Assembly: GCA_025201365.1 (NCBI GenBank)
Contig: JAIXMF010000094.1
Location: 1-41,373, forward strand
Origin: Syncephalis plumigaleata
Lineage: Eukaryota > Zoopagomycota > Zoopagomycetes > Zoopagales > Piptocephalidaceae
DNA: 41,373 nucleotides
Reading direction: 5' to 3'
Part shown: piece by piece, positions 18,493-40,269 of the stretch
How positions within the stretch are numbered: position 1 is the first letter of the stretch
Layout: every line of letters begins with the position of its first letter
Translations under genes and position numbers: made by a program
Notes under the pieces: generated by a model
Seen by the model: the letters and a program-made list of their open reading frames with translations, nothing else
The model's database searches: none
What the model was told of the DNA's origin: nothing

Positions 18493-19223
18493 AGTGGAAT
18501 GGAATAAGAAAGGCGATATGAGATAGAGAAATACCATTACTTTTAAATGTTCAAGAAAAGGAGGACAAGAACAACGAAGAACCAAACAACAACAAACAAC
18601 TTATCCATGATGGTTATTGCTACTCACATCTAAATACATGAGTTTTAGTATGTTGTTTTATACAGTATAATAATAGTAATGAAGAAGAAAGTCATATATT
18701 GTACTAAAACGCAGGGCACTTGCCATTTATAAACAGTCGTGTTCGTGTGTCCATTATACGAATGGTCGTCTGCAATGTTCACGCGAACAAACACATACAA
18801 GCACGCTCATTCACTCATTCACGAGTCACATGTATACAGACCCGCACGGCCAACGAATGCTGAAGGCCCTTGAAATGCAGCTGACATGCGTGCATCTCAA
18901 CTTGTCCCGTCTCTCTTCGCTCTTCTCTTCTCTCTTTCCTCTCGTCCGTTCACTCGCTCACTTTTTGTTCTTTCTCTCGCTTTCTTCGTTCCTTGCTCGT
19001 TTGTTCCCGTCTTCTATTCCTTATTTCTCCTTTTTTTCCATTGTTAATAACAACAACAATAATAATAATACTTTCCATAATACCTGCCATCTTTGTTTAT
19101 ACACGACACCATCAGTTCTTGTCATATCTTTGTTCAAATTGTTGTAGAGTCTCCGTCATTTATTAGATATACTATCACCATCATCATCATCATTATCATA
19201 TCATCATATCACCATCATTCAGC
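18493..19223. other. Upstream region of HbrB paralogue 2
   Basis: Contains TATAAA at 18728-18733, a long pyrimidine-rich CT tract (about 18905-19035) and a (CAT/ATC)n stretch (about 19170-19215) just before the ATG at 19224. Such CT tracts are common in fungal core promoters. Apart from the final 20-50 bp, none of this is present upstream of the duplicate gene at 35976. Confidence 0.5.
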
Positions 19224-21126
19224 ATGGCCCTATCCCGGTTTTTAGCCTCAAACGAGGAAACAAAACTAAACCCCGAAAGCCCTACTAGTAACCAGTTCCA
19301 TTTCCTATTAAATGACGACTACGTGGACCCTGTGCCGGAAGGTATTATTATAGACGATCAACCAATCGAGTTTCCACATCGTCGTTCAATTGACATGTCA
19401 GAAACCGAGCATGAGTCATTCGCTGTTGATGCCATTGCTGGCAGTCTATTGCTCGACGAACGATGTCGATACATGTCCAACACCTCTGGATGGTCGTACT
19501 ATCGTGCAAGCAAGCGTGGACAACAGTCGCCCAATCCTTTGTATCGCGATATAGACACGGAATCACTATCGGATGATGACTACGTACCAGGAGCCGCGCT
19601 TAATAGCACCTGCTCAACTCCCACTTCCACCGAGGGCATTCTTTCATCCCGCGGTGGATTCCGTCTTTTACGACCTCGAGGCTCGTTCTTCTCCCTTCAT
19701 TCAAACTCGTCCGATCGTAGTAAGAAAGCCGATAGAAAGCGACAGCGTCCGAATCTACGAGTAGATACATCGGGCAGACCGCAACGAGAATCGTTCTTTG
19801 ATATGCTAAGCGATCAAAGTGGCAGTCAACTATTCGGCTGTTTCAAGTCTAACTCGCATAACGCGCTCTACGACTGTCGTCCACGCACCTCGTCATTACC
19901 TCATGTTGATCGAGGTCGAAAAGTAACGGATTTATTCCCGTTCAGTAGTAGTAATAATAATAATAGTAGTAACAACAATAACACCGGCCATAGTAATACT
20001 ACTCAGCAAGGACGACCACGACGATCTTCTGATCAGCATTTAGCACCAGCACCTGAGAAACGACGTCCCAAACTTGCCATTAGCGTGCCCAACCTACAGA
20101 ATCGCATCCAACGTTGTGCATCCTCATTGGGCTTGCTACGTAGCACCTCGTCCATTCCACATTCGCCTGCCTCGGATGTAGGCCAGACACCCGTTACACC
20201 AGATCAAGGCTACTACTCGCCCGGTCTATTCAGTATGAGTGACCTGGATGGTGATAGCACTAAAGGACAGGTGACGCGGAAGCAGACCGACAATCAAGAT
20301 ACGTACACGGCCAATGAAATCGACGAATACTACGACGACGAGTTTCCCGGTGCACTGCCAGTTTCAGCAACCGATTCCCTCGATGCCGGCAATCTAATTA
20401 GCGAGGTCATCTCGGCTAATAAAGACTATGGCGCACCAGACGAATGGCAGGATGTGTTCATTAGACTTATGGCTTTATTTAACGAAGAGTATGTCAGCGC
20501 TTGTCTCGAGGATATTGCCCTCGTGGTAAGGTAAGCTAATCGTTCATCGTATTGTACGCATTGCCGTTCCACCCGCGCTAATCCATCCAATAGACGCTGC
20601 GCTGTACGAAGAATCCCTGAAAATATAAAAGATAGCATTACTACATTTTTAGATGCTGGAATGTACGCGTTATACTCGCGAATTGCAGGGTTGACCGGTC
20701 CCACACTACTCGCGGAAATGGCACGTCTTTGGCGGCATTTCCACTCGCACATAATGTCGTATCTAGGAGCGGCATTCCGCGGAATACGTCACTTTTCAGT
20801 GCGCGACCTATTGTTGTGCAGTTTTCGTGATCACATATTCCTTCCGATGGCCAAGCCACTTGAAGGTACGCGCTACCATCATATAAATGCAAATACAATA
20901 CTAATGCTCATGCGATGTAGATGCGTTTTCCCTTTTAAAAGCCGATGATAACATTCGACGCAAAGAGGAAGCTGCCAGTGTAGTGCAAATGTGCGGTCTA
21001 CTACTCAATGCATCGCGATCATGTCCCTGTCAGGCTGATGTGGCCGCTATTTGGAAGCGACTAACCGCCCAATGGCGATCAGTCAGCGTCAAGCATCTCC
21101 CTATTCCATTAACTGCATACGTTTAG
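19224..21126 (+). CDS. HbrB/PRR5/Bit61-family TORC2 subunit, paralogue 2a (594 aa)
   Basis: Exons 19224-20530, 20594-20865 and 20921-21126 join in frame. Residues 1-400 are largely disordered and Ser/Arg-rich with an Asn/Ser tract near residue 245. The HbrB domain starts around residue 410 (RLMALFNEEYVSACLEDIAL). It continues with SITTFLDAGMYALYSRIAG, WRHFHSHIMSYLGAAF, LLLCSFRDHIFLPMAK and a C-terminal helical part ending LPIPLTAYV. Intron positions and phases equal those in the HbrB gene at 10823-12324, and aligned segments (CIYERDRSTLLVDF / CAVRRIPENIKDSI) support paralogy. TORC2 membership is known for the family; the specific role is inferred. The gene lies in a direct duplication; its copy is at 35976. 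Confidence 0.82.
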
Positions 21127-21750
21127 CCCATTTCTTTCTTTTCTCTACGTTTATTATATATCGAATCTAACGTGTATTTTTATCATTTATTCGCAACATT
21201 TTTTTATTAGAAGCCATTGCTTCTCAATTATGAGATCATTAAATATACTAGAACCCAATAAATATCAGGCTGTATTGAGTTACACGCATCAACAAATATC
21301 AATACTAGATTAATAATACTTTGTATGTTGTATTGATTGGCCGTTATCTCCAAGTTCATGACTGTTATTGGCAATGACATGCTTCGTAAATGGCAAATGC
21401 GAGCAAGCTAGAATGAGCAATCGAATGATAATATTATGCCCTGTCTATGCAGAAACAAGGTATTCAAATGAACTAGACTGCTACTACATCCACATCAAGT
21501 ATTAATAAAAGTAATGATATCAACATGAATGAATCCATTATTAGTGTCGTAAGAAGAATATACCATTGGTGATTAGTTTGACTAATAAATATTTATTTAA
21601 TATGCTATATAATTTATTTACTATAGAATGAATGAGCAAATGAACACATTACATCGTGCAATACAATAAAGCAACAAGCATGATTACACCTGACATTTAC
21701 TATCGTTGTTATTTGTTATTATTATTTATTGTTATTATTAGAATAAAAAG

Positions 21751-21937
21751 GCGGTTCGGCGCACTCGGTCGAAGGTGAAAAGACCGGCGCACCGTCCGAC
21801 AGTCCGTTGCAAGCAACTGCAACTGCCGACCTTCCCAAAAATCGGTCTGATTACTTCTCTCCGTTGGAGAGATATCAGCAATCAAACTGATAAGAACAGA
21901 TACTACACTTGATCTAAGCCAATGGCTAGAGAGGATT
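21751..21937 (-). ncRNA. U2: U2 spliceosomal snRNA, copy 1
   Basis: Read on the minus strand, the RNA begins (A)ATCCTCTCTAGCC with stem I AGCC/GGCT. It continues with the nearly invariant U2 5' region AGATCAAGTGTAGTATCTG followed by TTCTTATCAGTTTGAT. GUAGUA is the branch-site recognition element that pairs with the UACUAAC seen in this window's introns. Stem IIa CTCTCC-AAC-GGAGAG follows, then an Sm site ATTTTTGG (21842-21835). The 3' half contains a GGTGCGC..GTGCGCC / CGGTC..GACCG hairpin before a T-rich end. A length near 187 nt fits U2 (human 188). The exact 3' end is estimated. The gene is transcribed convergently to the HbrB gene, about 625 nt from its stop. Confidence 0.95.
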
Positions 21938-22061
21938 ACCCGTCCATCATTGGCTGTCGTGGCTCGCGCGCCTTTAATCGGCCGTATTACTAGTGGGATC
22001 ACCACCTCGGCAACTGGCCTCCTTGAACCAATGGACACACATGCACACACACGCGCACTGG

Positions 22062-22446
22062 TATAAATATGTCAACCACACCATCACCCATGCTACAAAT
22101 TGCTTTTTCATTTTTACTCTTTTTTCCCCTTCTACTATTCTTTCGTTAATAAAGCGTTTACACCGCGTATTTGTTTATTTATTAGTTTATTCGTGTTCTC
22201 GTGTCAGCCATGTCTCTACCCTCTACGCCTTCATACTCGTTGTGTGTCGTCGTGCCACTATCGTTCTGGTGGTGGTGCGGCCAATGACCTCAAGGATCCA
22301 CGCGTTAGAGGGAGAATAAACACGCCACCTTCGCTGAAGGCGCCGACGTATCCATACGACTGAGGCTGCTTTTTGGTATTAGGATGGCTACATGCATTCC
22401 TACTTGCATCATCAAACTGAGCGGTAGTTCTGCAATGGCAGTTGCT
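22062..22446 (+). other. Conserved non-coding tail of the duplication, with TATA and hairpins
   Basis: A TATAAATA box (22062-22069) is followed by about 300 nt kept in both copies of the duplication although no reading frame survives in both. It contains a CCTTC-GCT-GAAGG hairpin and a CGTA-TCCA-TACG hairpin close together (about 22325-22360), then a T5 run. It could be an uncharacterised small RNA gene, part of the divergent U2 regulatory region, or merely young duplicated DNA. No known RNA family was recognised. Confidence 0.35.
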
Positions 22447-22733
22447 GCTACAGATACATATATCCATTAGTTTTGTAGATATAAATAAAGAATTGTAACA
22501 TTTGAACATCAATCATTCGAATGGTTTAATGTCTACTATTTCATGTGTAATAACCACACCAATGCTAAAGTGTAATGCTAGATCGACTACATCCTCTAAT
22601 GTATACCCAGTAAATAGTATGGAGTATACAACAACGATATTGCTATGTAATAAAATGGCCATAATGATGTTTATTAAGATGTGCAATAATAATAATGATA
22701 ATAATATGGTTTTCATACAAGCAATACTGGTAG

Positions 22734-25023
22734 TCAATCGCGTTTGATACTTGCATTCATGATCGTTTGGACTTGCTCGTCATCCCATTCCGTGTCGTTT
22801 TCATTGCGATATAAAAGGACATTTGGAACGCATAGGTACACGTACTAGTGAAAGAAGGAGATATCGTTAGATGGATACAATCAAACAGTAGAGCAGTTGT
22901 ATAGGTTCATAATACTTACATCACGATATAGACCCTGCATCTTCATTTTAACAAAGCATTTGAGCTCAACTCGTGGCTTTATGAAGAAGCGATATAGGCC
23001 GGAATCTACCGGTACAATGCGACATAGATCGTCACGAACAATCTGCCATCCCTTCCCGTTGTAGTGAAGACCAAGTGCTCGGATTAAGCTGTGTAAATGG
23101 CACTGAATTGCCGTATGGTATATTAAATCGTACACCTGTGGACACTCGACCATTAGCATGCTATGTATCATCTAGACAGCCTTCTTGGCAATACTCACCT
23201 TGTCCAATGTGCCGGCAATACAGCAACTATCGGGCAATACATCCAATTGCTCGTTTAGCGTATGCTTTAGTGTTTCCTGATGACCCATAACGCCACCAAA
23301 ATCACGTACTACAAATCCAACTAGCTTGCCGGTTTGTTTGTCAAAACGAGCCAGTGTGTTTTGACCATGAGCCTCAAAGGCAAATCCATACTTGTGCGCG
23401 GGTGTCAAGAATGCCTTTAGATAGAGTGCTGCGTATCTGTATCAATTACATCGTGTATTAGCATTATGTGGTGTCGCATTAGCACATGTCAGCTACCTTT
23501 CGAAAAAGGCCACTCGTTTAGCCTCGGTATCCAGATTGAATGCCGTCACGACAAATGGCACGCCATTGGCATTACGCTCAACAAGTGCAGCACAAACGAT
23601 GACATGCTCATTGTCTCCCGTCTTCTGGATTGCCTCTTCGCGGATAATGCACGACAAATGCTTAGCAACATCCGTGTCAGGATGTGTAATGACAGCGCTG
23701 GCCACCTCCTTTGCAACCTTGAGGATATCGGCATTGTCGGCCACCAGCTTGTCAAGCAGCCCGATCATACCGGGTCCCATGTGTGTGGACCATGGCGTGA
23801 TAGTACGCAGTGCCGACGTCACTTTAATACCCAGGCATAGCTTGATGGCCCATTCCGGATGCTCAACGGGCACCACTGTACGTAGCGATGCTTGTGCTTT
23901 GGCGGGCAACGTACCAGGCAGCAGTTTGACCTGTGGAAATCGCGCAAAGATATTCGGCAGTTGACGTGGATGCGCTGGTAGCACCGCATAGCGTGATGCA
24001 TCGGGAATGGCCGCTCGCGTCTCCTTGGGCATCAATCGGCTGATGTGGTGCTCATAGTCACCGCGTAGTGTGACGTCATCACGCGGCACACTCACAAAGC
24101 AAACATCAAGCATGCTGAGATCGTTCCTACTGGAAGTGCTTCCAACGGCGGTAGAGCAAAACGAGCCTTGTGCATCTAGGTATACAGTTAGCGCGTCTTT
24201 CTTTCTCCCCACTTGATGTTGTCTCGTGCATTTGTCTATTATTGTTATGTAACTTACAGGATGCGTAGCATGTCCTTCAACGATACTTTGTTCCCATTGA
24301 ATTGGCGTAGATGCCAGTGTAGGAGTGGCATTTCTATGCTCAAACGCATACTCCACTTGATTCATGGAACTGGCTAGCTCACCACATAGTTCGGCAGTGG
24401 ATTCGCTGGACTGTTGCTGCCAATGGCCCACAGCTCGCATCAATTGGCAAGCATCGAGGGATTCGGTCAATAGCACAGACTGACCATCGATATCCTACAT
24501 TAGCAATTATATAGTGCATTAGCGAGCATGCTACTTTGACTAAGCAATAACACCAACCTCACTAGACAAGGTAATAGCATGTTGTTGTCGTTATTATTGA
24601 CATCTTCATTTGACACGACAACATATGCCACTGTTTCCAGATCTTCTGGATGTAGGAATGAAACATGCGGCAAACGGCCTTCTTCATGCTTATCAACAAT
24701 GGGATAATGGTATAAAGGAACCATAAAATCGCCAGTCTTTACCGATCTTGATGCTGGCTCATGGCTTGGTGTGCGTATCCAGCACCATAGACGCGATGAT
24801 GATGACGATGTCGTGCTTGACGACCGGTGATGACATGGCAATCGACCAGTTGCTCATTGACGACACAGCTGAGCAGACGCGAGAATGTGGCATGATGTGC
24901 CTGGTGGGTGTTTATAAAAACGAGCAGGTACAATGGACTTGCTCGTCTTCTTGCGGATAGATCGCTACTATTCAACAAGTGGCCATGACTAACCGAGGAT
25001 ACAAGCGTTGGCATGGGTGACAT
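22734..25023 (-). CDS. IucA/IucC-family NIS siderophore synthetase, frame broken twice
   Basis: Six minus-strand exons: 25023-24563, 24494-24258, 24175-23497, 23436-23199, 23135-22920 and 22844-22734. The ATG at 25023 is preferred over an in-frame one at 25173. A TATA-like element (about 25158-25165) and a GATA site lie between them. Family marks in order: FSRLLSCVVNEQL, EGHATHPMHKARFALPPLE, YAVLPAHPRQ, KLCLGIKVTSALRTI, EAHGQN and VVRDFGG (ATP- and substrate-binding residues). These enzymes adenylate citrate or similar acids and condense them with amines, as in rhizoferrin and aerobactin synthesis. About 647 aa are expected (family 580-650). The frame shifts by one base in exon 1 (between about 24780 and 24860) and again in exon 3 near 24116-24126. 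This may be sequencing error or recent decay. Multiple introns show the gene is nuclear. Confidence 0.85.
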
Positions 25024-25093
25024 TCTGACGATGGAGGAATAGCAAAGTGAAGAAACGAGTGCACGACGTGAGGATACGTTAAACGTTGACGGA

Positions 25094-25102
25094 ATCTGAT
25101 AA
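25094..25102. promoter_or_regulatory. ATCTGATAA GATA site (iron-type)
   Basis: A perfect match to ATCWGATAA, the element bound by fungal iron-responsive GATA repressors (Urbs1, SreA, Sre1, Fep1) in front of siderophore genes. It lies 71 nt upstream of the preferred start of the siderophore synthetase. Confidence 0.6.
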
Positions 25103-26246
25103 GAACGGGACAGTTGTAATGGCAGAGCAAGTCGAGCCGGTAGGAAACAGCGCCATTTATTTAAGCCATTCATTTATGTTCTCAGCACTGGCAACCTCGG
25201 CTAATTCGAGAAACGAAACGAGTAAAGCACAGGCTAATAGGGAAGACCAATTGTAAACAGGCAAGAAGCAAGTACGAACGAGCAAAACTCGCATTGTTCC
25301 TTGAACAGTCGTGGCAGTATTTCTCATTGGCGTGCTTAGAGCCTTGGTGATTGCTTTTCGTTACACGCATGCTATACACGCCCCTTTTTAGATGTACAGT
25401 CGACGGGATATTATCGATGCGAGAACCCCTTTCGCATAGGATTACTTGTTTAGACAGAGTGGCATTAGCCGTCTCATCTGATAAGCGTCATATTCTCACT
25501 TACTCATTCGCTCATTCATACATGTGTTGCATAGTAATTCATCTGTTGCTGAATAGCAATAGCCTGCTTTATTACAATGCATCAATGATTATTTCTAATT
25601 GTTGCTCTCGCTACTCTATCAACCAAAAGTGAAGCTGTTTAAGCATATCCATTGAGCTGTAGAAACATTCAAGGTGTTTATACTCAATATTAGCATAGAA
25701 AATGAACAGGTTACAGTAAGGCAGGTCACTATGGCTATGACACCCATGTGTTACATTTTTAGCCAAGTTATGCGGCATGATGACGGATTAAAATAGTCTC
25801 ATCTGATATTCTCGGTCGCAGCATCTGATATGATTTTGTCGTGAATGAAACACGAGTTCGGGTATTATCGGAAGTTCGGCTTTATTGCTAATGAAGAGTG
25901 TCCAGTAGAATGCAACGAACAAGTAGTACATGCTGCCATTATCATCTGAAAATCAAGCAAAGATGGGTGGTATGGTGCGCGTAGAATGTTCTTCGTAGTC
26001 ATGACGTTCTTCTATCTGATGACATGTGTGTTCTTTGCTCCATAACATCAGATATCCACCATCATGCCACCACAACATATCATATTCCTGCAGTAAGGCC
26101 TCTATCTTGCCGATACTTCATATTGAAGTCAACAATACGCACAATAAATATTAATACAATTGTATGAATCTGTTTATTGTTACTCTTGTTACGATGAATG
26201 TTAATGAACTCATTACAACATACGTTCTACTCTATCTGTAATATGC
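25103..26246. other. Long upstream region of the siderophore synthetase
   Basis: About 1.1 kb without a convincing gene between the synthetase start and the 3' end of the GPATCH4-like gene. Its only visible structure is the set of ATCWGAT motifs. Confidence 0.5.
25476..25484. promoter_or_regulatory. Second ATCTGATAA GATA site
   Basis: A second perfect ATCWGATAA about 450 nt upstream of the siderophore synthetase start. Shorter ATCWGAT cores follow at 25801, 25823, 26014 and 26047. Confidence 0.55.
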
Positions 26247-27464
26247 TTATTCTTTGGATTTCTTTCGTTTCTCCTTCTTTACTTTCTTCTCTTTCTTCTC
26301 TTTCTTCTTGCTTTTCTTCTTTGATGAACTATCCCGAGCATCCATATCTTCATCGACGTGTTTTCTCTTCTTTTTCACTACTTTTTCCGTATCCATTCGC
26401 CTTTGTTCCAAGCAGGTCCCATCACTTCCAGGCTCATCCGCTTTCATTATTACTGGCGACATTGACGTAGTCAGCACTTCTACACGCGCTAATTTGGCCG
26501 GTTGCTCAACTCGTGCACCTTTACGCGCTGTACGACCCTCACATGCTGCGAACAATTCGGCATCTGTAATGCGAACACTGTAGTCTCGTCCATCATCATC
26601 ATCATCATCATCATCCGATTCTGAGCTAGAACCATTAGATGTAGCGTCATCGACCGGTGCCGTTTTGTTTACGTTTGATGGCAGTCCATTGGACCCACTG
26701 TAGTCTACATGTCAGTACAATCGTTTACTCTTCTCTTCATTGCATTAACCTACACTGTACCCGTCAATCCACCACTGCACTTGCCACAAATGTACCACGC
26801 ATCCATATAGGCATTGCTGCTGGTTTCGTTGCTACTTTAGCCGTATCTTCTACATCGCTCTTATCCTCCGTATCCGCTGCTTTTTGCTCTTTTTCTCCTT
26901 CTTCTCTTTCTTCTTCTTTTCCTTCTTCTTCTCTTTATTGTGCTTCGATGGTCGCTCTGTACTAATAATACCCATACGATTTCGTTCTACACCGCCTTTA
27001 CTCGAAGTACTGAGCATGACCTAGCATTGCCATTCAGATGCGATTAATCCTCGATTGCACCAACGCTCCCTATTGCCACTTACACCGCTGTCGCCTTTCT
27101 CCACTTTGATTGCACTAGAACTCTTGTTGTACACATGATCCCACCATGCAAATCCCCAAGTATCGCTACCGGAACCCAACTATATTATGGCAACAAGTAT
27201 ACTCGATGTTATTCATCCATGTTAATTGACAATAGCCGTAAGTAACACTACATACACCCTTCGAGTCGTCTTTTTTAGCCAGCGATATGGCGCGAGTGAT
27301 ACCCTCTCCCTCACGACCTAGACCTTTTCCACTAATACATTCATATTAATACATGTACATAGCCAGTTGTCGTCATATGCTATCCCTTACTCCTTCCAGC
27401 CGTATTTGCTGAGCTGTTTAGCTGCAAACTCGCCATAACGATGCTCGTTGGTAGGCACTGTCAT
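26247..27464 (-). CDS. GPATCH4/Tma23-like nucleolar G-patch protein, apparent one-base frameshift
   Basis: Exons 27464-27391, 27331-27256, 27179-27084, 27020-26781 and 26704-26247 on the minus strand. The first two exons encode a G-patch (YGEFAAKQLSKYGWKDGKGL, then GREGEGITRAISL). Exon 3 carries the GPATCH4-specific FAWWDHVYNK (human HWWNELFNK). Exon 5 carries AACEGRTARKGAR (human QACEGRTAHKAAR), an Asp8 tract and a Lys-rich nucleolar tail. Known members act in the nucleolus; human GPATCH4 stimulates the helicase DHX15 in ribosome biogenesis. In the Lys/Glu-rich part of exon 4 the frame is lost next to a five-base homopolymer (26881-26885); one extra base would keep it open to the next donor. 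The exon 4 donor (26781/26780) is a non-consensus GTGCAG, so that boundary is uncertain. Confidence 0.82.
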
Positions 27465-27727
27465 TACAAGTAGGTTACTTGTTGCAAAGATATAAAAATA
27501 AAATAAAAATAAAAGTAAAAATTCAGCATTTGATGAAATGGCATTGTTGTGTGCATGTGTTGCAATGTAGTATGAATCCATTGCTTCTTTAGTCTCTCCT
27601 CAGTTCCTCACCATCACAACCGACGATATTCCGTTCTCTTCCACTTATCAACCAGTTGCTTTTCAAATCTTACTTTATTCGCTGTCAGACTCAGCCATTG
27701 CCAACACAGCCTGTGCCGTGATTCACT

Positions 27728-28077
27728 ATGCGTTTCCTTATTAACCGTGCCAATCGAGTTGTTGAACGTCAACGCTTCTTCCAGGTATTGCATATATCCT
27801 AATATTGTCGCGTCAGCTGAATTGAAGCAACTACTACACATCAAACACTCTGCTAACCACTTCTCTGTCACGCGCAGACTGGACCCTTGTTTGTCTGGCA
27901 AAAGACCAGTCGTGATCGTGCCGTCAATCTTGTGTTTGGCACTTTGATTACTGGTGGAGTTATTGCATCCACTGCCGGTCTAGCTAGCATGGCCACCGTA
28001 AGTGCTTTCCAGTTAAATGGATAAAAGGGGAGGTATACGCGCTATTCAGCTAACATCTATTTGTACAGGGCAAATAA
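27728..28077 (+). CDS. COX7: COX7a-like small mitochondrial membrane protein (61 aa)
   Basis: Three exons, 27728-27784, 27878-27997 and 28069-28077; the last holds only Gly-Lys-stop. The N-terminal RVVERQRFFQ is the conserved Q-x-x-FQ motif of cytochrome c oxidase subunit VIIa. A short loop with SRD and one transmembrane helix (LVFGTLITGGVIASTAGLA) follow, ending MATGK. Length and topology match COX7a (about 55-60 aa), a peripheral single-helix subunit of complex IV that also contributes to supercomplexes. A different small inner-membrane subunit is possible. Intron 1 has a GCTAAC branch site and intron 2 a CAGCTAAC branch site. The gene is divergent from the GPATCH4-like gene, with 263 nt between their starts. 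Confidence 0.65.
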
Positions 28078-29712
28078 TTGCTATTGCCGCTGTTGGCATC
28101 GACTTACTTGCCGTTCATTAGCAGCCGGATCTATCATGCATACATTGTCTAGTATAGCTGGATGTGGATGTCCATTGATTCATTATGGCTATACGTCGTT
28201 GCATACACGTTTATTTGCAGCATGTCATGTTAATGCGGTAAACAAGATCATTTCCATACTTTCATACTCGTCTCCATTAAGTATCAATGACCATAATTAA
28301 TCAAAGTGATTCCCTATACTATTGTGCAAATGTTTGTAGTCATTATTGATCAGAAATACTACAAATAACACTAGTGACAAGAAGCAAAGAAGGCAATGCG
28401 AGCATCATCATCATTACATAGCATGATCATTGATGGTAAGAAGTAGTTGCTACGAACAATTGCATTAACACGACAATTGAGCAATGACAAACTAATGAAC
28501 GAGCGTGTCATTACATGGCAGTAGAATGGTGTATAATTGCAAACTAACTCATTGGTAGCTATTTAAACAATATCATGGAGGTACAGCTTTTATTCCCGTT
28601 CATTGTCCATAGTGAATGGATTGTATTGCGTATACATTAACTGCACCAGCAATGCTAATAGTATATGACTGACCATACATCTTTATTGTATTGAGCAGTG
28701 CTGCTTCAATAGAATATGAATTCATCGATCGTAATTAACAGCATGCCTATAATATCTGAATAAACCATTCAGCAACTGGCAAACAATTGCATAATATCAT
28801 TATGTTCATGCTATGACATGCTAGTATCTAATCGATTACACGTATCTCGACAATGTACTTTGTTATTTACGAATAAACTAATCAACGAGCAACCAAGTTA
28901 GTCTACAGTCATTCCAATATCATGAATAGCTTGCACATATGATTATGAAGTATGCGAATATTGTAATAGCATGCTCACAATTATTCCATTCATTCGATGT
29001 AATGTAATTGCTTATTTAGCATTGAACACTCTATCCATCGATAAAGAAATCAATATAAACAACAAGTATATGAGCAAATCTGATGCAAATGAATAGTACA
29101 CTCACAAATATCATAATTAATTTACAATAACGATTGGCGCTATTCATAATGAGTATTCTTTAATGCTATTCGATAGCTACTGTAGATTTGTCTATAGATT
29201 GTAAGCATGGTTGATCCGGTCAAGTAGACGGTGTTTAGCAATACTACGGAGGTGTAAGCAGCATGATAACCGCTCTCTCTATTAGCAATTTGGAGGTCGC
29301 TGAAAGGAAGGAAACAAGCATAGAGCTAGTGGAAACACGATATGCTTTATTAATCTATCCTTAAAAAGGGCCATGGCACAATACGACAACATGGTCAACC
29401 GACAAACGAGATAGTTATTCCAACTTTGCTGCCTCGCTTATTTCGCATAACACGATGTTGCTGTTACAGCATGGTGCTAGATTTAAGGAAAGATTGATTT
29501 GCCTTTTACTATGTACATCGTTTAATCCCCTTATTAGATTAGGAACGTGGTTTCTTATGACGCACATTTGTTTGACGTGTATTGATACAATGAGGACTTC
29601 ATGGTTAGTAAAAGAGAAAAGAGGATACTATGATTATTGAAAACATGTACCCCAATGAATACTGAAAATGTTGTGTAAGTGGTTAACACGCGAATAGCAA
29701 CGTCATCTCGAA
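28078..29712. other. Long AT-rich intergenic region
   Basis: About 1.6 kb with no credible reading frame, tRNA or snRNA, and no match to the other repeats in the window. It is the longest featureless stretch here. Confidence 0.5.
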
Positions 29713-29860
29713 CATAAAAGCAGCGTATTGTTTGTGGCTTTATTCGATACTTTACACTCATCTACAACGACTGCAACGACCACACCTTCGCCTATCGCTC
29801 TTCTTTCAAGTAACGTTTAAACTTATTTCTAACGGATTATCGACAGTTCTATGCAACAAC

Positions 29861-30271
29861 ATGGTCTCCTTCCGGTCATTATCGTTCACCGCCATCGTAG
29901 TCTTGGCCATCCTTGGTAGTGCCAATGCTGCTCCTATGAATCCACTTCCTGGTTCCCAGTCTCTAACTGGCGGACAGGGCAACTTACAACTGCAAGCAGG
30001 GCAGATAGGAGGCCTAACACGAGCACCAAGCCAGAGACTGTTAAAAAACCTGCAACCCACATCCCAAGTGACACCAGCGGACCGGGATCGGATAATAGCG
30101 GACAATGATAAGATACTAACGAGCAATATTAAGGTACTAGCGGAAGGTATCAAGAGAATAGCGCTAAATAAGAAGAGAATAGCGGGCCTGGATCAGATAA
30201 TAGCGGACAATAATAAGATACTAGCGGAAGAGAAACAGCAATTAGAGAATCCGCAACGACCACGTCAATGA
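29861..30271 (+). CDS. Small secreted coiled-coil protein (136 aa), unknown
   Basis: Single exon; the ATG at 29861 is chosen because it opens a textbook signal peptide (VSFRSLSFTAIVVLAILG-SANA, cleavage before APMNPLP). The mature 113 residues are cysteine-free. Residues 24-75 are Gly/Gln/Pro-rich, and about 76-130 form an amphipathic helix with I/L spacing every 3-4 residues. The helix contains a near-repeat, IIADNDKIL and IIADNNKIL, encoded by two almost identical stretches (30086-30118 and 30191-30223). A TATA-like CATAAAAG lies at 29713-29720. No family was recognised. It could be a secreted effector or cell-wall protein of a host-associated fungus; that is only a guess. Confidence 0.7.
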   Translation: MVSFRSLSFTAIVVLAILGSANAAPMNPLPGSQSLTGGQGNLQLQAGQIGGLTRAPSQRLLKNLQPTSQVTPADRDRIIADNDKILTSNIKVLAEGIKRIALNKKRIAGLDQIIADNNKILAEEKQQLENPQRPRQ

Positions 30272-30484
30272 TCTAATACAAGATATACGCCAACGACTGA
30301 TTTAGCTACTGTTTTGGATTTCTAAACTGATTTTAATGATATTGCTGAACAATAATAGAACAGTATTTTGGATTAATAAACAATAGATGAATTCAAATAA
30401 CTAGTGTGTGTATGTAGTACATTATGTAATCATTGTCATTTATATTGGAATGTTTGGATAGGGAAACGAGCAATGTAGGATGGG

Positions 30485-32235
30485 ATGATTGATGCTAGAT
30501 GAAAGAGAGGAACGAGTAGGCTAAGATACAATGTTGATTTGACGGGTAGAAGATAATGAAGCAATAATGAGATAGGAAGGGATACAGTAATGACATGTCA
30601 ATATAGATCAAATTGATTCACGTTTATTAATATTGCTAGTGGATGCTTGTCAATGATGGATGACAACGAGTGTTGGCTGTAAGCATTAGCATGGTTGATT
30701 ATCCCGGTATACTGTCATTGTTGTTGAATATTAGTTGATTGACAATTAGAATGGGAATTAGTACATATTGTCTGGATATTGTCACTTGCATTAGCAATGA
30801 ATAGAAATGTCAACTTACCGAATAGAATGGGCATAGTATGTAGTCAATGTCATTGACATTTGGATGTTCTAATTGTAATATTGTTAGTGTATTGTAATAA
30901 ATGAACTTACCTGTAATTAATACTTATGAATGAATGAATGAATGGATTGTAATAAAGTAATAAAATATGTTATGTCCCCATCATATCCGCTATCTTCGGA
31001 CCGGGCCTTCCCATCCATAAGTGAAGCGCCATGCTAATACAGTTGAATGTCTTGCGACAAATATCACTATATTACTAAAAATTAATGTAATTGCATTTGG
31101 AGTACGTGCCTATCAACATATGTACGTCCACCCACCACAGGTGAACATACATCGCTTCGTGTGGTTGTGCAAATTAATACTAGCAAGTAACCATTACTGT
31201 TATCGTATTAATTACGAAGCCGTTGATAGGGATGTTGTCGTCACAAATGCGCTTACATCAACATTTAGCAATAGGGACTACGGTGGCCGGTATATGGGCA
31301 TTGATCACAAGCGGAAACACACACACTTGTGGCAATGACCATATACACATTGACTGATATGGACGATGATTGTTGGCTAGGCGACCACCGCCATAGAACA
31401 ATGCTGCCACGGCCGTAGTCGTTCGCGATATATTCAACCGCGCACATGCAATGGGATCAGTAAACTAGCAATGTAATGTATCTAAATACATATGGGCTAG
31501 TTTGGACATAACATAAAAAGGGAGGGAGGATTTTGATGTACACAGGCATATTACAGTTTGAATAGAATAGCGCGAATAAAGAGTGATTAAACATACACGA
31601 AAACATACCATTAAATAATGTCAGTCACCACAGTATCAAGTAAACTAGACTCCCTTCTCCAGCGAAGGCAGCAACATGATGGTCAAATATCATGGCAAAG
31701 CGTCGTTTAAGTGATACTATGGTGGCAAATTGACCTAAACACATATCAATATAGAATAAAGATACATGTTCAAGTATTTGCAATCCAATACATTTCATAA
31801 TACTTGTATAATAGATGGACTATCACGCTACATTACAACTTAATGATCTATAGAAACAGTGCAGCAGCTGTCCCAGATTATAGCCAGGATCCCTCAATGT
31901 GAGATAAATATAAATATTACCTGGGACAAGGACAGACGCTGCATGTTTCTGCAATCTCTTTCCCGAACAGTTCCCGGAACTAGTCAGCATGTAGTTAGCC
32001 TCAAAAGAGTCACATGAAACAGGACGAGCGGAAAGAGAATTGCATCGCGATAGCATCGTATTATACAAGCATACGAAAGCCCGCAAGCAAGCACGAATAG
32101 AAGACCGAAAGCCCGTTACAAGCTCCGTCTCACGCTGGCCGTGATAGGATTTCACCACTTCCAGTATTACGCTGCACGCAAGCAGTTTACAGAGCACTGA
32201 CCTATTTTATTATGTATATGTACAAACAAGAAGTA
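30485..32235. repeat. Dispersed non-coding repeat R1, copy C
   Basis: Longest copy of the family. It aligns with copy B from 30485 and with copy A from 30605 to about 32235. The middle (about 31850-32090) is highly diverged from copy A. It lies just downstream of the secreted-protein gene and is followed by a purine minisatellite. It keeps the minus-strand donors at 30910 and 30817. Confidence 0.7.
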
Positions 32236-32237
32236 GT

Positions 32238-32465
32238 AGTGGAAAAAGAGAGAAAGTGAAGAAGAAGAGTAATGAGATGAGATGAGAAGCAAGAAGAAGT
32301 AATGAGAAGAGAAGAGCGAAGAAGTGAGGAAGAGACGAAGAAGAAGCGAAGCAGTGGAGTGAGATGAAGTAATGAAAGATGAGGGATGAGCGAAGCGAGG
32401 AAGAAAGAGTAAAGAGAAGTGGATAGGAAGAAGCGAGGAAGAAGCGAGGAAGAAGCGAAGCTAAG
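32238..32465. repeat. Purine-rich minisatellite (GAAGAAGCGAG-type)
   Basis: About 230 bp that is nearly all A/G on the plus strand, built of irregular GAAGAAG, GCGAGGAAGAA and AATGAGA units. The corresponding place in copy A (about 3020-3080) has a much shorter version, so the tract has expanded in copy C. Confidence 0.85.
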
Positions 32466-33129
32466 CAAGCTGTAGAATCGAGCGCTATTTATTTGTTAAA
32501 ATGACGTCGTTAATCGTCATTTGGTGATTCAAGTAAGTATTAATGATGCCTCATTGTAATTCATTTTGAAATTTAGTATGTCAATAACCATCCACTTCAA
32601 TAATCCAACTTGATCATATCCTTGTATTTCATTTCATTTTATTTCTTATATATGATCTTTTTACTTGAGCATTGCATAATAGTGTTTATTATAATAAAAT
32701 CAGGTATGACAACGTTTAAAAAGAGAGAGAAAGGATATATCTAGTATGTGCAAAGGGCGCCGTCATTATTACCATTTAGACTGCACGCTATTCTGTATTT
32801 GGCAATAAATGCTTTATTGATAGTGATAGTGCTACATTCTACTTCATTTCTTAGTTTAGCATCTACGATTATTTTATTACGAATGATTTGTCAAGGAGAT
32901 TAGTCGAGACAGCAGAGTCTATTAATGTGTGTGCTGATATGCCGTTTATCAAAGGTGAAACGGTAAGTAACGCTAAAGTGGCACGTACCTGAATGAGTGG
33001 GACCAGCTCAAACCAGGTGGAATCCTTATTGGTAGAGATGTAACGACGAACCAGTCATCAGTAGAAGTATCGCAAGCCATTACTAATGAGTGTCGTTTCT
33101 CGAGTTCATGTCATTCACGTCTAGTATGT
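32466..33129. other. Intergenic, includes a partial R2 repeat
   Basis: AT-rich. 32795-32880 resembles the start of repeat R2 (CTGTATTTGGCAATAAATGCTTTATTGATAG-type core). Nothing else was recognised. Confidence 0.45.
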
Positions 33130-34140
33130 ACATTTCCTATGTTGATCAATCTACTTCTAAATTGCTATTTTGCGGACGATTGTTATTGTTATTGCTATTG
33201 TATTGCTGACGACGATTATTGCTGTAGGTATTGTTGCGATTCCTCTGTAAGCAATTTCTCGCAATGTGGCCTAGTTCGTCACACGCATAGCAACGTCGTG
33301 CATTACTACTGTTGTTATTACACCTGTGGTTGTAATTGTTTCGAATATTCTGGAATCCTAAACTGTTTAGTGCTTGAACTAACGCATCAATATCCATAGA
33401 TGTGACATTGCTATTATCTTCCTTTCTTGCTTCGTTTGATACTCTTTGACTTCTGCAGTGTTGCCGAGAATAATAAAGGGCGCGTGTGGTGAGGATGTAT
33501 CATCAAGACTGCAAGGATTTGCTCGAAGGGACTCAGTCAAATCATATACCGGAAGTGTTTGTTGGAATGCCGCAATGAGTTCTTCGTCTATTGCGCTGGG
33601 GATACGACTACGAATGACCGTGAACCTGGTAATATGTTCTTCTAAGTCGAGATTATCCGTCCACTGCAAACTAGATAACTGCAACCGAGCGATGGAAGCT
33701 GACCGATTGCCTCCATAACGTACGAGGATATCCTTTTTAAACTGCTCCCAGGTCTTAGGTGCCTTGGGACTAGCACGCATGGATTGATGCCACATTGCCG
33801 CTGACCCTCCTAATCACTGAACAGCCCAAACTATTTTCTGTGCTTCGTTGTAGTCGCTAATTTTCCATACTTGTTCGACAAGGTTGCACCAACGGTCCAC
33901 AGGAAACCCATTTTCTCCTGTGAACTTCGGGACCGATGATAAAGGTGATCGATCAGTCTGCACCATTGATTATAACAATAAAGCAATACCTTACTGAAGT
34001 GACTGACGCTTGGAAATGAAGACGATATGTAAACAATAATACTGATAGACTTGCTGAAACCTTTTGACGAAAGTGGTATCAATAATACGGTGGCAGTAAA
34101 AGAGAGAACGGTTGCCACTAGTGTACCAACTACAATTGAC
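33130..34140 (-). mobile_element. Ty3/Gypsy-like retrotransposon fossil, Gag part only, broken
   Basis: On the minus strand the remains of a retrotransposon Gag are visible: a Retrotrans_gag-type helical region (around 33400-33900, with a W-E-Q-F-K style motif) and, 3' of it, a CCHC zinc knuckle (CYACDELGHIARNC, near 33260-33305) in an Asn/Arg-rich tail. No protease, reverse transcriptase or integrase and no LTRs were recognised nearby. The element is clearly not whole, with at least two breaks in the remaining part. It looks moderately old: the motifs are readable but most of the element is gone. Confidence 0.75.
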
Positions 34141-34589
34141 ATGAGATGTTGACTAATGAATCCTTCTCTTTAATAGAACATAAGAATATTTATATAGGTG
34201 TCATTCGTATATAGTGTGAATAAATTATGCTCCTTACGCCATGTGCAAAGTGCTGATCGACGAATTCTCATCAACTTGCATGGACGCGCATTTTAATGCA
34301 TACATGCTAAATTGAATTGCTCTAGCTTTAATTACGACCTATATGCCTACTTGTCTCGTTTATCTTATAGAATTGAATATAGTAGTTATCGCTATCAATG
34401 AAGCATGCATGACTAACACTGATTTATCATTATTATTACGCTTGACATTGTTGCGTTCCGTCAATTGGTATTTTTACGGTGATAATGGATATTGATCACG
34501 TCAACCTATTTGCATTCTCATTGTTACTTGATAGATCATTATATTTTACATGGGCTACATTGTTCTGCCACGTTAATAGCAATGCTTAG

Positions 34590-35723
34590 CAAGTATTCTC
34601 GTTCAATAAAGGTATGTCGATAAGAAGTGTACATAGCATACTCAACGGTAGAACTAATATCTGTCTTGTTTATTGTAGTTATTCAAGAACTGAATCGCTT
34701 TACCAACTCACAACTATCGGCGTTCTACTTTGAATCTATCAAGGAGCGGCTTTACGTTGGCGACAAATTATCGTTGGCACGAAGATCAGCACAGACTGCC
34801 GTATACTGCGTAAGTCATTGATACTTGGTATGCAATTGTAGCTAAGCAAGGAATACTGCATAGATAATTGAGATGTACACACGCACACTCGCACCAATTA
34901 CTTGTCATTTAGCCGAGGAGATTCAGCTTTTCTTCTCGTCGAGTTGGTCGACACCACTTGATAGCGTATTCCAGTCAGGATGGATATCTCTGGTAAACAC
35001 TTGCAATCACTGAGCTATGTATGGTCTAACACTCGAGCATTGGTATGAATAGGATGGTCGTTGGCATAATACTGCTTTGGAGCAAGACTGGACAGTGCTA
35101 CGACGCCTTCGTAGTCAGTACTACCAGCTAGTCGAGAAGGTGCGACAGGCCAAGTAAGTGCTATCTGCAGTATAGCAAATGATTTATTTACAAATTTCAC
35201 TGACTGACAGGGGAATCAAGACAAGCGAGCAAATCGATCTGTCACTAGAACTGGAAGACAGTGCAATGTCTCCACTAGGCCAATTACTACAGAAATACGG
35301 TAAGACGACAATAATAATAACAATACTGATAGTGATATTGGTTGTATATATTTTATTAAGCAATACGCATTAGCATCACAACTACTTGAACTGCTCTTAT
35401 GTGTATCGGTTAATGTTGCTGCACAGTCGACATTAACCACGAGAAATGACAGTGTCCTTATTAGTGAGACGATATCATTACCAAGTAAGTATGGAGTATG
35501 CAGTATGAATGTGGCATGACAACGACTATTGATCGACAACGTAATAGACACTATGAATGGTGCATCTGGTCAAATGATTCTACGTTTATCGGCACGACAT
35601 AAATGCCCTAGATGTTGGAGCTATCGATCTGATCAACCGGAATGTCTATGTAATCGATGTCAACTTGTTGTGAACAATAACAAGGGACACGCCATTGATG
35701 CTACTATGTATTCGTATAACTAA
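34590..35723 (+). pseudogene. 3' remnant of mitochondrial-type isoleucyl-tRNA synthetase
   Basis: Seven splice-consistent exons: 34590-34611 (22 nt), 34679-34809, 34864-34992, 35053-35153, 35211-35299, 35374-35484 and 35548-35723. They encode about 252 aa: the anticodon-binding domain (NRFTNSQLSAFYFESIKERL, RRSAQTAVYC, LAPITCHLAEEIQ, SVFQSGW, DWTVLRRLRSQ) and the C-terminal zinc finger CPRCW..CLCNRC typical of bacterial/mitochondrial IleRS. The catalytic domain (HIGH and KMSKS motifs, some 600-700 residues) and all earlier exons are missing from the window. Upstream lies about 450 bp of non-coding DNA and then the Gag fossil. The remaining exons show no break, so the loss is either recent or the 5' part lies elsewhere after a rearrangement. 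The 22-nt first exon is a splice-based inference. Confidence 0.85.
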
Positions 35724-35975
35724 TAGCAACATCCCATCGATGATGTACTAGCAAGCCTATTGAATAACGACCTGATTCATTCGATCATCCTGAACACATG
35801 GAACCAAGTTGTTAGACACATACCAATTATAAATTGTTACTTTATCATATAGTATTCGTGTACGATATTCATTATTAGTTGAATGGATTAGACTGATCAG
35901 CTAGCAATTACTACTACTAATGATACCACCATCATCATCATCACCATCACCGTCACCATATCACCATCATTCAGC

Positions 35976-37872
35976 ATGGCCCTATCCCGGTTTTTAGCCT
36001 CAAACGAGGAAACAAAACTAAACCCCGAAAGCCCTACTAGTAACCAGTTCCATTTCCTATTAAATGACGACTACGTGGACCCTGTGCCGGAAGGCATTAT
36101 TATAGACGATCAGCCAATCGAGTTTCCACATCGTCGTTCAATTGACATGTCAGAAACCGAGCATGAATCATTCGCTGTTGATGCCATTGCTGGCAGTCTA
36201 TTGCTCGACGAACGATGTCGATACATGTCCAACACCTCTGGATGGTCGTACTATCGTGCAAGCAAGCGTGGACAACAGTCGCCCAATCCTCTGTATCGCG
36301 ATATAGACACGGAATCATTATCCGATGATGACTACGTACCAGGAGCCGCGCTTAATAGCACCTGCTCGACTCCCACTTCCACCGAGGGCATTCTTTCATC
36401 CCGCGGTGGATTCCGTCTTTTACGACCTCGAGGCTCGTTCTTCTCCCTTCATTCAAACTCGTCCGATCGTAGTAAGAAAGCCGATAGAAAGCGACAGCGT
36501 CCGAATCTACGAGTAGATACATCGGGCAGGCCGCAACGAGAATCGTTCTTTGATATGCTAAGCGATCAAAGTGGCAGTCAACTATTCGGCTGTTTCAAGT
36601 CTAACTCGCATAACGCGCTCTACGACTGTCGTCCACGCACCTCGTCACTACCTCATGTTGATCGAGGTCGAAAAGTAACGGATTTATTCCCGTTCAGTAA
36701 TAGTAATAGTAGTAGTAACAACAATAGCAACAGTCATAGCAATACTACTCAGCAAGGACGACCACGACGATCTTCTGATCAGCATTTAGCACCAGCACCT
36801 GAGAAACGACGTCCCAAACTTGCCATTAGCGTGCCCAATCTACAGAATCGCATCCAACGTTGTGCATCCTCATTGGGCTTGCTACGTAGCACTTCGTCCA
36901 TTCCGCATTCGCCTGCCTCGGATGTAGGTCAGACACCCGTTACACCAGATCAAGGCTACTACTCGCCCGGTCTATTCAGTATGAGTGACCTGGATGGTGA
37001 TAGCACTAAAGGACAGGTGACGCGGAAGCAGACCGACAATCAAGATACGTACACGGCCAATGAAATCGACGAATACTACGACGACGAGTTTCCCGGTGCA
37101 CTGCCAGTTTCAGCAACTGATTCCCTCGATGCCGGCAATCTAATTAGCGAGGTCATCTCGGCTAATAAAGACTATGGCGCACCAGACGAATGGCAGGATG
37201 TGTTCATTAGATTTATGGCTTTATTTAACGAAGAGTATGTCAGCGCTTGTCTCGAGGATATTGCCCTCGTGGTAAGGTAAGCTAATCGTTCATCGTATTG
37301 TGCGCATTGCCGTTCCACCCGCGCTAATCCATCCAATAGACGCTGTGCTGTACGAAGAATCCCTGAAAATATAAAAGATAGCATTACTGCATTTTTAGAT
37401 GCTGGAATGTACGCGTTATACTCGCGAATTGCAGGGTTGACCGGTCCCACACTACTCGCGGAAATGGCACGTCTTTGGCGGCATTTCCACTCGCACATAA
37501 TGTCGTATCTAGGAGCAGCATTCCGCGGAATACGTCACTTTTCAGTGCGCGATCTATTGTTGTGCAGTTTTCGCGATCACATATTCCTTCCGATGGCCAA
37601 ACCACTTGAAGGTACGCGCTACCATCATACGAATGCAAAAACAATACTAATGTTCATGCAATGTAGATGTGTTTTCCCTTTTAAAAGCCGATGACAACAT
37701 TCGACGCAAAGAGGAAGCTGCCAGCGTAGTGCAAATGTGCGGTCTACTACTCAATGCATCGCGATCATGTCCCTGTCAGGCTGATGTGGCCGCTATTTGG
37801 AAGCGACTAACCGCCCAATGGCGATCAGTCAGCGTCAAGCATCTCCCTATTCCATTAACTGCATACGTTTAG
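35976..37872 (+). CDS. HbrB/PRR5/Bit61-family TORC2 subunit, paralogue 2b (592 aa)
   Basis: Exons 35976-37276, 37340-37611 and 37667-37872 join in frame and encode nearly the same protein as 19224-21126. Outside the Asn/Ser tract (near residue 245, two residues shorter here) only three replacements were found: Leu to Phe just before ALFNEEY, Thr to Ala in the second exon and Ala to Val at the start of the third. Synonymous changes in exon 1 number about a dozen. Introns are likewise conserved. The upstream DNA is unrelated to that of copy 2a and offers a different TATA-like element (TTATAAAT near 35827), so expression may differ. Confidence 0.82.
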
Positions 37873-38482
37873 CCCATTTCTTTCTTTTCTCTACGTTTAT
37901 TATATATCGAATCTAACGTGTATTTTTATCATTATTCGCAACATTTTTTATTAGAAGCCATTGCTTCTCAATTATGAGATCATTAAATATACTAGAACCC
38001 AATAAATATCAGACTGTATTGAGTTACACGCATCAACAAATATCAATACTAGATTAATAATACTTTGTATTTCGTATTGATTGGCCGTTATCTCCACAAG
38101 TTCATGGCTGTTATCGGCAATGACATGCTTCGTAAATGGCAAATGCGAGCAAGCTAGAATGAGCAATCGAATGATAATATTATGCCCTGTCTATGCAGAA
38201 ACAAGATATTCAAATGAGCTAGACTGCTACTATATCCACATCAAGTATTAATAAAAGTAATGATATCAACATGAATGAATCCATTATAGATGTCGTAAGA
38301 AGAATATATCATTGGAAATTAGTTTGACTAATAAATACTAGTCAACGCAATAATAATACAATCTTGATGCACAAATGAACACATTACATTGTGCAATACA
38401 ATAAAGCAACAAGCATGATTACACCTGACATTTATTATCGTTGTTATTTGTTATTATTTATTGTTATTATTAGAATAAAAAG

Positions 38483-38669
38483 GCGGTTCGGCGCACTCGG
38501 TCGAAGGTGAAAAGACCGGCGCACCGTCCGACAGTCCGTTGCAAGCAACTGCAACTGCCGACCTTCCCAAAAATCGGTCTGATTACTTCTCTCCGTTGGA
38601 GAGATATCAGCAATCAAACTGATAAGAACAGATACTACACTTGATCTAAGCCAATGGCTAGAGAGGATT
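38483..38669 (-). ncRNA. U2: U2 spliceosomal snRNA, copy 2
   Basis: Identical over the full inferred length to copy 1 (21751-21937), including stem I, the GUAGUA branch-recognition element, stem IIa, the Sm site and the 3' hairpin. The first difference appears a few bases outside the 5' end. Upstream DNA is also duplicated, so both copies probably carry the same promoter. Confidence 0.95.
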
Positions 38670-38795
38670 ACCCGCCCATCATTGGCTGTCGTGGCTCGCG
38701 CGCCTTTAATCGGCCGTATTACTAGTGGGATCACCACCTCGGCAACTGGCCTCCTTGAACCAATGGACACACATGCACACACACACGCACACTGG

Positions 38796-39179
38796 TATAA
38801 ATATGTCAATCACACCATCACCCATGCTACAAATTGCTTTTCATTTTTACTCTTTTTTCCCCTTCTACTATTCTTTCGTTAATAAAGCGTCTACACCGCG
38901 TATTTATTTATTTATTTGCTTATTCGTGTTCTCGTGTCAGCCATGTCTCTACCCTCTACGCCTTCATACTCGTTGTGTGTCGTCGTGTCACTATCGTTCT
39001 GGTAGTGGTGCGGCCAATGACCTCAAGGATCCACGCGTTAGAGGGAGAATAAACACGCCACCTTCGCTGAAGGCGCCGACGTATCCATACGACTGAGGCT
39101 GCTTTTTGGTATTAGGATGGCTACATGCATTCCTACTTGCATCATCAAACTGAGCGGTAGTTCTGCAATGGCAGTTGCT
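38796..39179 (+). other. Conserved non-coding tail, second copy
   Basis: Same TATAAATA (38796-38803), two hairpins and T5 run as at 22062-22446. Small indels break every short frame shared with copy 1 while the hairpin part is unchanged. Confidence 0.35.
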
Positions 39180-39365
39180 TATGTACGTCTCTTTTATTCT
39201 ATTCTACATATTCCATTGTTCCATTACACATATATTAATAAAAAGTATTATGTTTTATTAACGCTCATGATGTGATGAAAAACTCGATTGTCTCAATTAG
39301 TGTACTTCTCAAACGAGACTGATAGCATTCAGCACATTCATTTGTATTTCGCTTTTCTTTTCAGC

Positions 39366-40103
39366 ATGCCACCATTTCAGCATTTTTTACAACCATTAAA
39401 TGGTATACGAAGACGTTTATCCTCTCTGCCTATCACTTATTTCCTTGTTGTCATACCTGTCGTCAGTGCTTTTGTAGCTATTGCCACTGCACGCTCAAGA
39501 ATTCACACTCATCGTCCATTTGCATCTTCCTCGAAACGAACCATGTCGTCAATAGGTGGCGATAATAATGGCGACGATGCCTATCTACGCTTCCTACAAC
39601 AAGCAAATGCACCACTCACAGCCAATGCGAGTACTCCAATTAGTGGCGAGGTGGCACCTCATGCCAACGTACTAACCACCACTCCTTCTGATGCAGCATT
39701 AGCGACAGCGCAACAACGACTCGATTCTGCTGCTTCTGGTCTTTGCCTGATTACCGAAACGGAATCCGATCTGGCTGTAGTACATATTCCAACGTCTAAC
39801 TTTGAAATTACAACGCTAACTGAGGAAAAGTTTACCGAATTACTTGGTGCTAACCACGAGGAATGCACCTCCATTGATGTCGACGAGTTCTTTGCTAATG
39901 CTAAACATGCGGCAGCTAGCGTAGGACTCACGGAGGATGCCACTCGATGGTCTGCCCTACATCATACGTTAAGCGAGATTCTAGCAACTGTCCCATTAAA
40001 AGCGTGGCAAGTTGGTCGTGCAGCAGATGCATGGGTATACGTTGGTGGTATATTGCCGGGTAAAGGCTTTATCGGTATACGTGCACGCTCTGTAGAAACA
40101 TAA
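39366..40103 (+). CDS. NuiA-like (nuclease A inhibitor family) protein with N-terminal membrane anchor (245 aa)
   Basis: Single exon; the start at 39366 is chosen, with a second in-frame ATG at 39543. Residues 1-60 hold a basic segment (GIRRRLSS), a hydrophobic helix (ITYFLVVIPVVSAFVAIATA) and further basic residues, as in a mitochondrial or ER anchor. From about residue 115 the chain follows the NuiA fold: GLCLITETESDLAVVHI (family LLFMSESEYPFEVF), SIDVDEFFANAK (VDVDSFFTDAK), and a C-terminal WQVGRAADAWVYVGG.. with KGFIGIRARSVET matching VYRVG..VYIIG..AGLKTKVVET. Cyanobacterial NuiA inhibits the sugar-nonspecific nuclease NucA. Eukaryotic members of the domain family have no settled function. 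Inhibition of an EndoG/Nuc1-type mitochondrial nuclease is a plausible inference. Confidence 0.75.
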   Translation: MPPFQHFLQPLNGIRRRLSSLPITYFLVVIPVVSAFVAIATARSRIHTHRPFASSSKRTMSSIGGDNNGDDAYLRFLQQANAPLTANASTPISGEVAPHANVLTTTPSDAALATAQQRLDSAASGLCLITETESDLAVVHIPTSNFEITTLTEEKFTELLGANHEECTSIDVDEFFANAKHAAASVGLTEDATRWSALHHTLSEILATVPLKAWQVGRAADAWVYVGGILPGKGFIGIRARSVET

Positions 40104-40269
40104 AAAGAGCGAGAGGAGTAGGGAATTGTTATTGTACTGATTTCTATTTGGAGATGTTGTTGAGCAGGTCAATAAATACGTGTCTGTCCGTTGATTTTCG
40201 CATCCTTGTGTTATTCTCGTAGTTAGCGTGATTTACTTTTAATTTATTGCAAATACTTTTATTACTACA
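40104..40269. other. Short intergenic spacer
   Basis: 166 bp between two co-oriented genes. It includes AATAAA at about 40171 for the upstream gene and the ERG8 core promoter region. Confidence 0.5.

Follow-up and report, generated by a model that had tools for sequence, protein, structure and literature searches.

In human, genes for U2 small nuclear RNA (snRNA) form the RNU2 tandem array, which is described as evolving in concert (Liao et al. 1997, Pavelitz et al. 1995, 1999, as cited in PMC3795722). The present analysis concerns a duplicated block of DNA in which a U2 gene lies beside a gene with an HbrB domain, in the fungus Syncephalis plumigaleata. The window is the complete contig JAIXMF010000094.1 of assembly GCA_025201365.1, 41,373 bases long and here called C378, and the genome searched comprises 32.6 Mb in 383 contigs. 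As in the account of RNU2, U2 genes stand in repeated units that are kept alike, and the rapid intrachromosomal homogenisation with rare interchromosomal conversion for which Liao et al. (1997) is cited is the pattern that we infer here. In contrast to that tandem array, the locus consists of two blocks ~17 kb apart and one inverted part copy, and its unit also contains a protein gene. Interlocus gene conversion in human segmental duplications (PMC4467073) provides a second comparison, with paralogous blocks that exchange sequence as they appear to do here; the exchanges described in that source involve short stretches, whereas here nearly the whole of a 3.1 kb block would be involved. Allelic contigs, finally, can mimic segmental duplications when a polymorphic region is assembled as two versions (Kelley and Salzberg 2010, PMC2864568). 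The same has probably happened at this locus, with the difference from the situation outlined there that a true duplication sits inside the allelic pair. The genus Syncephalis is mycoparasitic (PMC6784888), and a literature search that included the species name Syncephalis plumigaleata returned no title on this locus.

Structure of the duplicated block

The window carries a direct repeat in which positions 19173-22446 match 35924-39179 at 96.7% identity by BLAST over 3280 alignment columns, far beyond chance and also confirmed base by base. In both copies an intact HbrB-domain gene, read from the plus strand, converges with a full-length U2 gene on the opposite, minus strand. With matches to PF08539 and RF00004, the original prediction of a direct duplication of these two genes on opposite strands proves real, and the edges that it gave (19205-22446 and 35957-39179) are correct within ~30 bases. 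The first and second positions of the block along the contig are termed place 1 and place 2, and the window copies, both in plus orientation, W1 (sequence type a) and W2 (type b). Their counterparts on C329, a 1,413,401-base contig of the same assembly, are termed C1 and C2. In W1 the HbrB-domain gene occupies 19224-21126, with exons 19224-20530, 20594-20865 and 20921-21126 encoding 594 amino acids, and the U2 gene 21750-21936. In W2 the corresponding genes lie at 35976-37872 (exons 35976-37276, 37340-37611 and 37667-37872; 592 amino acids) and 38482-38668.

The edges had been predicted to be sharp, which holds for the right side but not for the left. The right edge (22437-22446 in copy 1) is sharp to the base, being followed by GCTACAG at place 1 and by TATGTAC at place 2. 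The left edge (19173-19223 in copy 1), made up of an (ATC)n microsatellite and the leader to the HbrB ATG, dissolves in the microsatellite, whose run ends ~20 bases before the ATG, and the DNA upstream of it is unlike between the two places. Between the HbrB and U2 genes lies a divergent patch (21590-21637), in which 17 of the 38 aligned columns distinguish type a from type b and a further 12 columns are gaps.

Against the genome the block gives 15 matches. Four are full-length, two on C378 and two on C329, and the fifth is an inverted partial copy of 843 bases (C329:903496-904338) that begins inside the divergent patch and carries U2 without HbrB. The remaining 10 are short (33-112 bases) and consist of U2-like or microsatellite sequence.

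Relation of the window to contig C329

C378 is collinear end to end with C329:774582-817460, broken only at 30044-30838. The flanks pair by position, window 1-30044 with 774582-804603 and 30838-41373 with 806906-817460, and outside 30001-31000 they differ on average by 2.67% (901 of 33,748 columns without gaps). At the non-collinear stretch, which contains pieces of a dispersed repeat, C329 has ~2.3 kb; this is a candidate site for a switch of phase in the assembly. Both blocks recur on C329 at the corresponding places, which makes it unlikely that the assembly created the duplication. The two places have unrelated flanks, each of them present in two allelic versions.

C378 is contained in a longer contig, collinear with it and a few per cent divergent, with one non-collinear stretch, and is best read from these alignments as a second allele (haplotig) of the C329 region. 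Syncephalis plumigaleata belongs to the Zoopagomycota, of which single-cell data in one study give three of the four members considered as not haploid (Ahrendt et al. 2018, PMC6784888), and a review describes diploids as commoner than expected among zygomycetes (PMC10386755). The redundancy of the contigs agrees with a heterozygous diploid whose two haplotypes were in part assembled separately.

Diagonal identity of the four block copies

The block copies match diagonally, W1 with C2 and W2 with C1, though as far as the block edges the flanks of W1 match those of C1, and the flanks of W2 those of C2. By BLAST, W1 is 99.6% identical to C329:811985-815262, and 35931-39179 of W2 is 99.9% identical to C329:793725-796973. 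Column by column, W1 and C2 differ at 8 of 3274 positions and W2 and C1 at 5 of 3255, against 85-90 differences in 3248-3249 columns for the other four pairs (85/3249 between W1 and W2, close to the mean divergence of the flanks). Among 93 variable gap-free sites, 81 group W1 and C2 against W2 and C1, one groups the copies by place, none groups them by contig, and the other 11 set one copy apart from the rest. When the 5' edge and the final 160 bases are excluded, 3069 columns of block interior remain, in which W1 and C2 show 0 differences and W2 and C1 show 1; every one of 452 overlapping 3.04 kb windows of the flank comparison has at least 18 differences. The edge of a conversion tract is visible near the right end. 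Three sites there (22359, 22400 and 22435) set C1 apart from W1, W2 and C2; at 22400 and 22435 the partial copy, which has the place 1 flank, agrees with C1. These signs of gene conversion, the diagonal near-identity and the tract edge, agree with the gene conversion that the original suggestion named beside constraint; the identity of the U2 genes needs only ordinary constraint.

The 843-base partial copy belongs to a 9.3 kb inverted duplication, C329:895020-904338 against window 21600-30888, that holds a fifth U2 gene and the stretch with an IucA/IucC-like gene. It lies ~90 kb away on C329, with its far edge in a dispersed repeat. The duplication is a mosaic, window-like at 26.0-29.0 kb and C329-like at 24.0-26.0 kb and 29.0-30.0 kb. 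Its use as an outgroup to place a phase switch did not decide the matter, since it is itself mosaic.

Origin of the duplication and alternative explanations

The explanation to which we give a probability of about 75% is that this fungus, heterozygous and probably diploid, carries a small dispersed segmental duplication homogenised by gene conversion, with a crossover or phase switch between the blocks. A 3.25 kb segment, comprising the HbrB paralogue from at most ~50 bases before its ATG and a complete U2 gene with ~500 bases of upstream DNA, would have been copied in direct orientation to a second place, at a distance of 16.8 kb (C378) or 18.3 kb (C329), before the haplotypes split. Gene conversion would then have made the two places uniform over nearly the whole block, leaving the two copies within each haplotype probably almost identical, a/a in one and b/b in the other. 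Both haplotypes would have been assembled, one within the long C329 and the other as the short C378, and the diagonal match would result from a crossover or, more likely, from an assembly phase switch between the blocks. That types a and b diverge about as much as the flanks is as expected if they represent the two haplotypes, with one type at both places after gene conversion. If the contigs are alleles, the copies occupy the same places in both of them, as in concerted evolution; paralogues would be closer to each other than alleles within a haplotype only given a phase switch or crossover between the blocks, the assembled pairs being diagonal. The C329 haplotype would possess three identical U2 genes, each with its own upstream DNA and together providing extra dosage of one spliceosomal RNA, and at one place the HbrB gene would be joined to a different upstream region.

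Several observations weigh against this explanation. As assembled, the near-identical block copies are in trans, and at 22359 the partial copy and C1 have different states. The mosaic structure of the 9.3 kb duplication, with several switches, may indicate recombination richer than a single event. The redundancy of the assembly is also patchy: an 8 kb stretch of C329 (910001-918000) is without a second copy, and contig C327, which carries a U6 gene, aligns to C329 at 97% on one side only (1176 of the 2001 bases read).

A considerably less probable explanation takes the phasing as correct, with one chromosome carrying a then b and the other b then a after two diagonal conversions in trans or one reciprocal exchange. 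This is literally what the assembly shows, and the exchange would be confined to the block, the flanks being paired by place up to its edges. Two diagonal trans events over nearly the whole block are required, however, and cis events with one switch are about as economical. Cis homogenisation is moreover the known pattern for U2 genes, as Liao et al. (1997) is cited, and the structurally different, dispersed-repeat stretch at 30044-30838 lies between the blocks as a plausible switch site. Should the phasing nevertheless be correct, a dispersed U2 block would have been exchanged in trans between homologues, nearly edge to edge, and very recently, because the diagonal pairs show only 0 and 1 differences in 3.07 kb against 2.7% between the surrounding alleles. 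Together with the mosaic 9.3 kb duplication, this would make the locus a very active site of ectopic recombination that keeps U2 uniform without a tandem array.

It is improbable that C378, instead of being the other allele, stems from a further large segmental duplication at another site in the genome. The single-copy part of C329 would agree with such an origin, but C378 lies wholly inside the alignment to C329 and has no foreign flank at either end. A 6 kb piece of the window (9000-15000) has two long matches in the assembly, on C378 and C329 themselves, the other 15 of its 17 matches being 38-78 bases long. Two other short contigs, at snRNA or U2-like loci, behave alike, C99 matching C24 at 97-99% and C253 matching C1 at 95% over the 2 kb read. 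An assembly artefact, in which a block present once per haplotype was placed twice, is more doubtful still: types a and b are each nearly unchanged on both contigs, as such an error would leave them, but the two places have unrelated flanks that each occur in two allelic versions.

The original prediction also raised the idea that U2 and a TOR-pathway gene are linked in a mobile or repeatedly copied unit, and its accompanying statement that transposon ends are absent is borne out. In the outer 120 bases of either block copy there is neither a target-site-like repeat of 4-12 bases nor a terminal inverted repeat longer than 7 bases; the longest exact end-to-end inverted match is 7 bases and lies away from the very ends. 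The blocks and their flanks contain 17 and 11 weak inverted pairs of at least 12 bases, none of which connects both ends of a block, and two diverged minus-strand pairs in the window (94 bases at 77%, 53 bases at 85%) lie away from the blocks. In one kind of inverted pair the right block edge is matched to a segment of 24-25 bases within U2, at 79-80% complementarity and with the arm stopping at the edge (22423-22446 with 21812-21835, at 79%, and 39156-39180 with 38543-38567); this complementarity may be chance, as one of the 17 and 11 such pairs. Full-length matches sharing both edges occur only at two places on two collinear, allelic-looking contigs, and the fifth identical U2 gene (C329:904006-904192) was copied with other breakpoints and without HbrB. 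A mobile or selfish unit carrying HbrB and U2 jointly, for which two direct copies and one sharp edge might speak, is therefore rejected on copy number, edges and the fifth U2 gene, the microsatellite edge fitting copying driven by short homology instead. HbrB and U2 do not form a fixed unit, because the fifth U2 gene sits in a different, inverted duplication, and their pairing is best read as neighbourhood within a small, ordinary duplication whose copies gene conversion keeps alike.

U2 genes and other spliceosomal RNAs

The two U2 genes of the window are identical over all 187 bases. Five full copies are found in the genome, mutually identical, each scoring 132 bits against RF00004 (gathering score 46) over model positions 1-192 of 192; this covariance score rules out a chance U2-like match. 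Three of the full genes lie on C329 alone, and no other spliceosomal RNA searched exceeds one per contig. Full matches in the assembly number at least 5 for U2 (with 2 shortened sequences in addition), at least 1 each for U1 and U4 and at least 2 each for U5 and U6, these counts being lower bounds in that only the best candidates were scored. U2 is the only one of the five families multiplied beyond apparent allelic doubling.

Outside the 5' edge and the divergent patch, the non-coding DNA of W1 and W2 shows 31 differences in 1194 columns (2.6%). At that rate U2, with its 187 bases, would be expected to show 4.9 differences, but it has none (P about 0.007). The observation that the U2 copies are identical while non-coding parts of the block have drifted therefore stands, but not as the mark of a special process: constraint on an essential RNA suffices to explain the identity.

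The shortened U2-like sequences lie at C24:402567-402716 (52.6 bits) and C99:6966-7115 (41.6 bits, below the gathering score). Both are without most of the stem-loop II region, and the terminal hairpin of the C99 sequence reads as the inverse of that on C24. U6 genes are found at C329:841430-841551, ~27 kb from the second U2 block, and at C327:34870-34991. In the 2 kb of C327 that was read, similarity to C329 begins ~45 bases past the 3' end of U6.

The duplicated HbrB gene and an older paralogue

HbrB proteins are subunits of target of rapamycin complex 2 (TORC2), and the duplicated gene had been called a TORC2-subunit gene. Its HbrB domain is borne out; its status as the canonical subunit is not, as the gene looks like a diverged paralogue in which the reading frame has been kept. 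Copy 1 has an open frame and GT..AG introns, with PF08539 found in the frame of the second exon, and its protein is 98% identical to S. plumigaleata BDF22DRAFT_679420 (P0001). The latter scores 56.9 bits against PF08539 (curated cut-off 22.7), the best stretch covering only model positions 5-100 of 166. Between W1 and W2 the 592 codons compared show 22 synonymous and 8 replacement differences, 5 of the 8 replacements falling within an Asn/Ser run. The proteins of W1 and C2 are identical and those of W2 and C1 one residue apart. Searched against the genome, P0001 gives 12 matches, of which 10 are exons of the four block copies and two are a distant match in the window and its counterpart on C329.

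An older HbrB paralogue lies at 10823-12324 on the minus strand. It encodes 452 amino acids, 451 of them identical to the annotated protein P0002, and is 29% identical to the duplicated gene over 207 amino acids, with two introns at matching places. It scores 85.4 bits against PF08539 over model positions 5-165, and its relatives include three other proteins besides one from S. fuscata that is 85% identical across 72% of the query. For the duplicated gene, word-limited searches, one of which scored the best 7999 candidates by shared words, returned relatives from its own species only. The higher and fuller Pfam match and the S. fuscata relative make the older paralogue the better candidate for the TORC2 subunit; judged from these comparisons, it is probably the canonical HbrB gene, rather than the duplicated one. 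A search of solved structures gave one match for P0001 (E 0.52) and one for an exon frame of the older paralogue (E 0.88), neither of them meaningful.

Other features of the window

A dispersed repeat of ~0.9 kb lies at 5743-6664, with pieces at 1363-1865 and 30480-30990, and is thus also present in the stretch that is structurally different from C329; it has at least 41 matches in the genome, itself included. Divergence between the contigs rises to 9-13%, against the mean of 2.7%, at 4501-5500, over a CDC20-like WD40 frame, and window 4337-5622 has a 79% relative at C329:890877-892169. At 16501-18500 a second patch of high divergence (~7%) overlaps in part a frame whose weak F-box-like match falls slightly short of the Pfam cut-off. 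The remaining frames include one resembling IucA/IucC siderophore synthetases (23493-24494, minus strand) and one with a NuiA (nuclease A inhibitor-like) domain (39279-40103).

Implications

The locus shows how a scan can mistake an allelic contig for an independent locus. With their distinct flanks, the four block copies constitute a small natural experiment on gene conversion within versus between homologues, in an early-diverging and probably diploid fungus.

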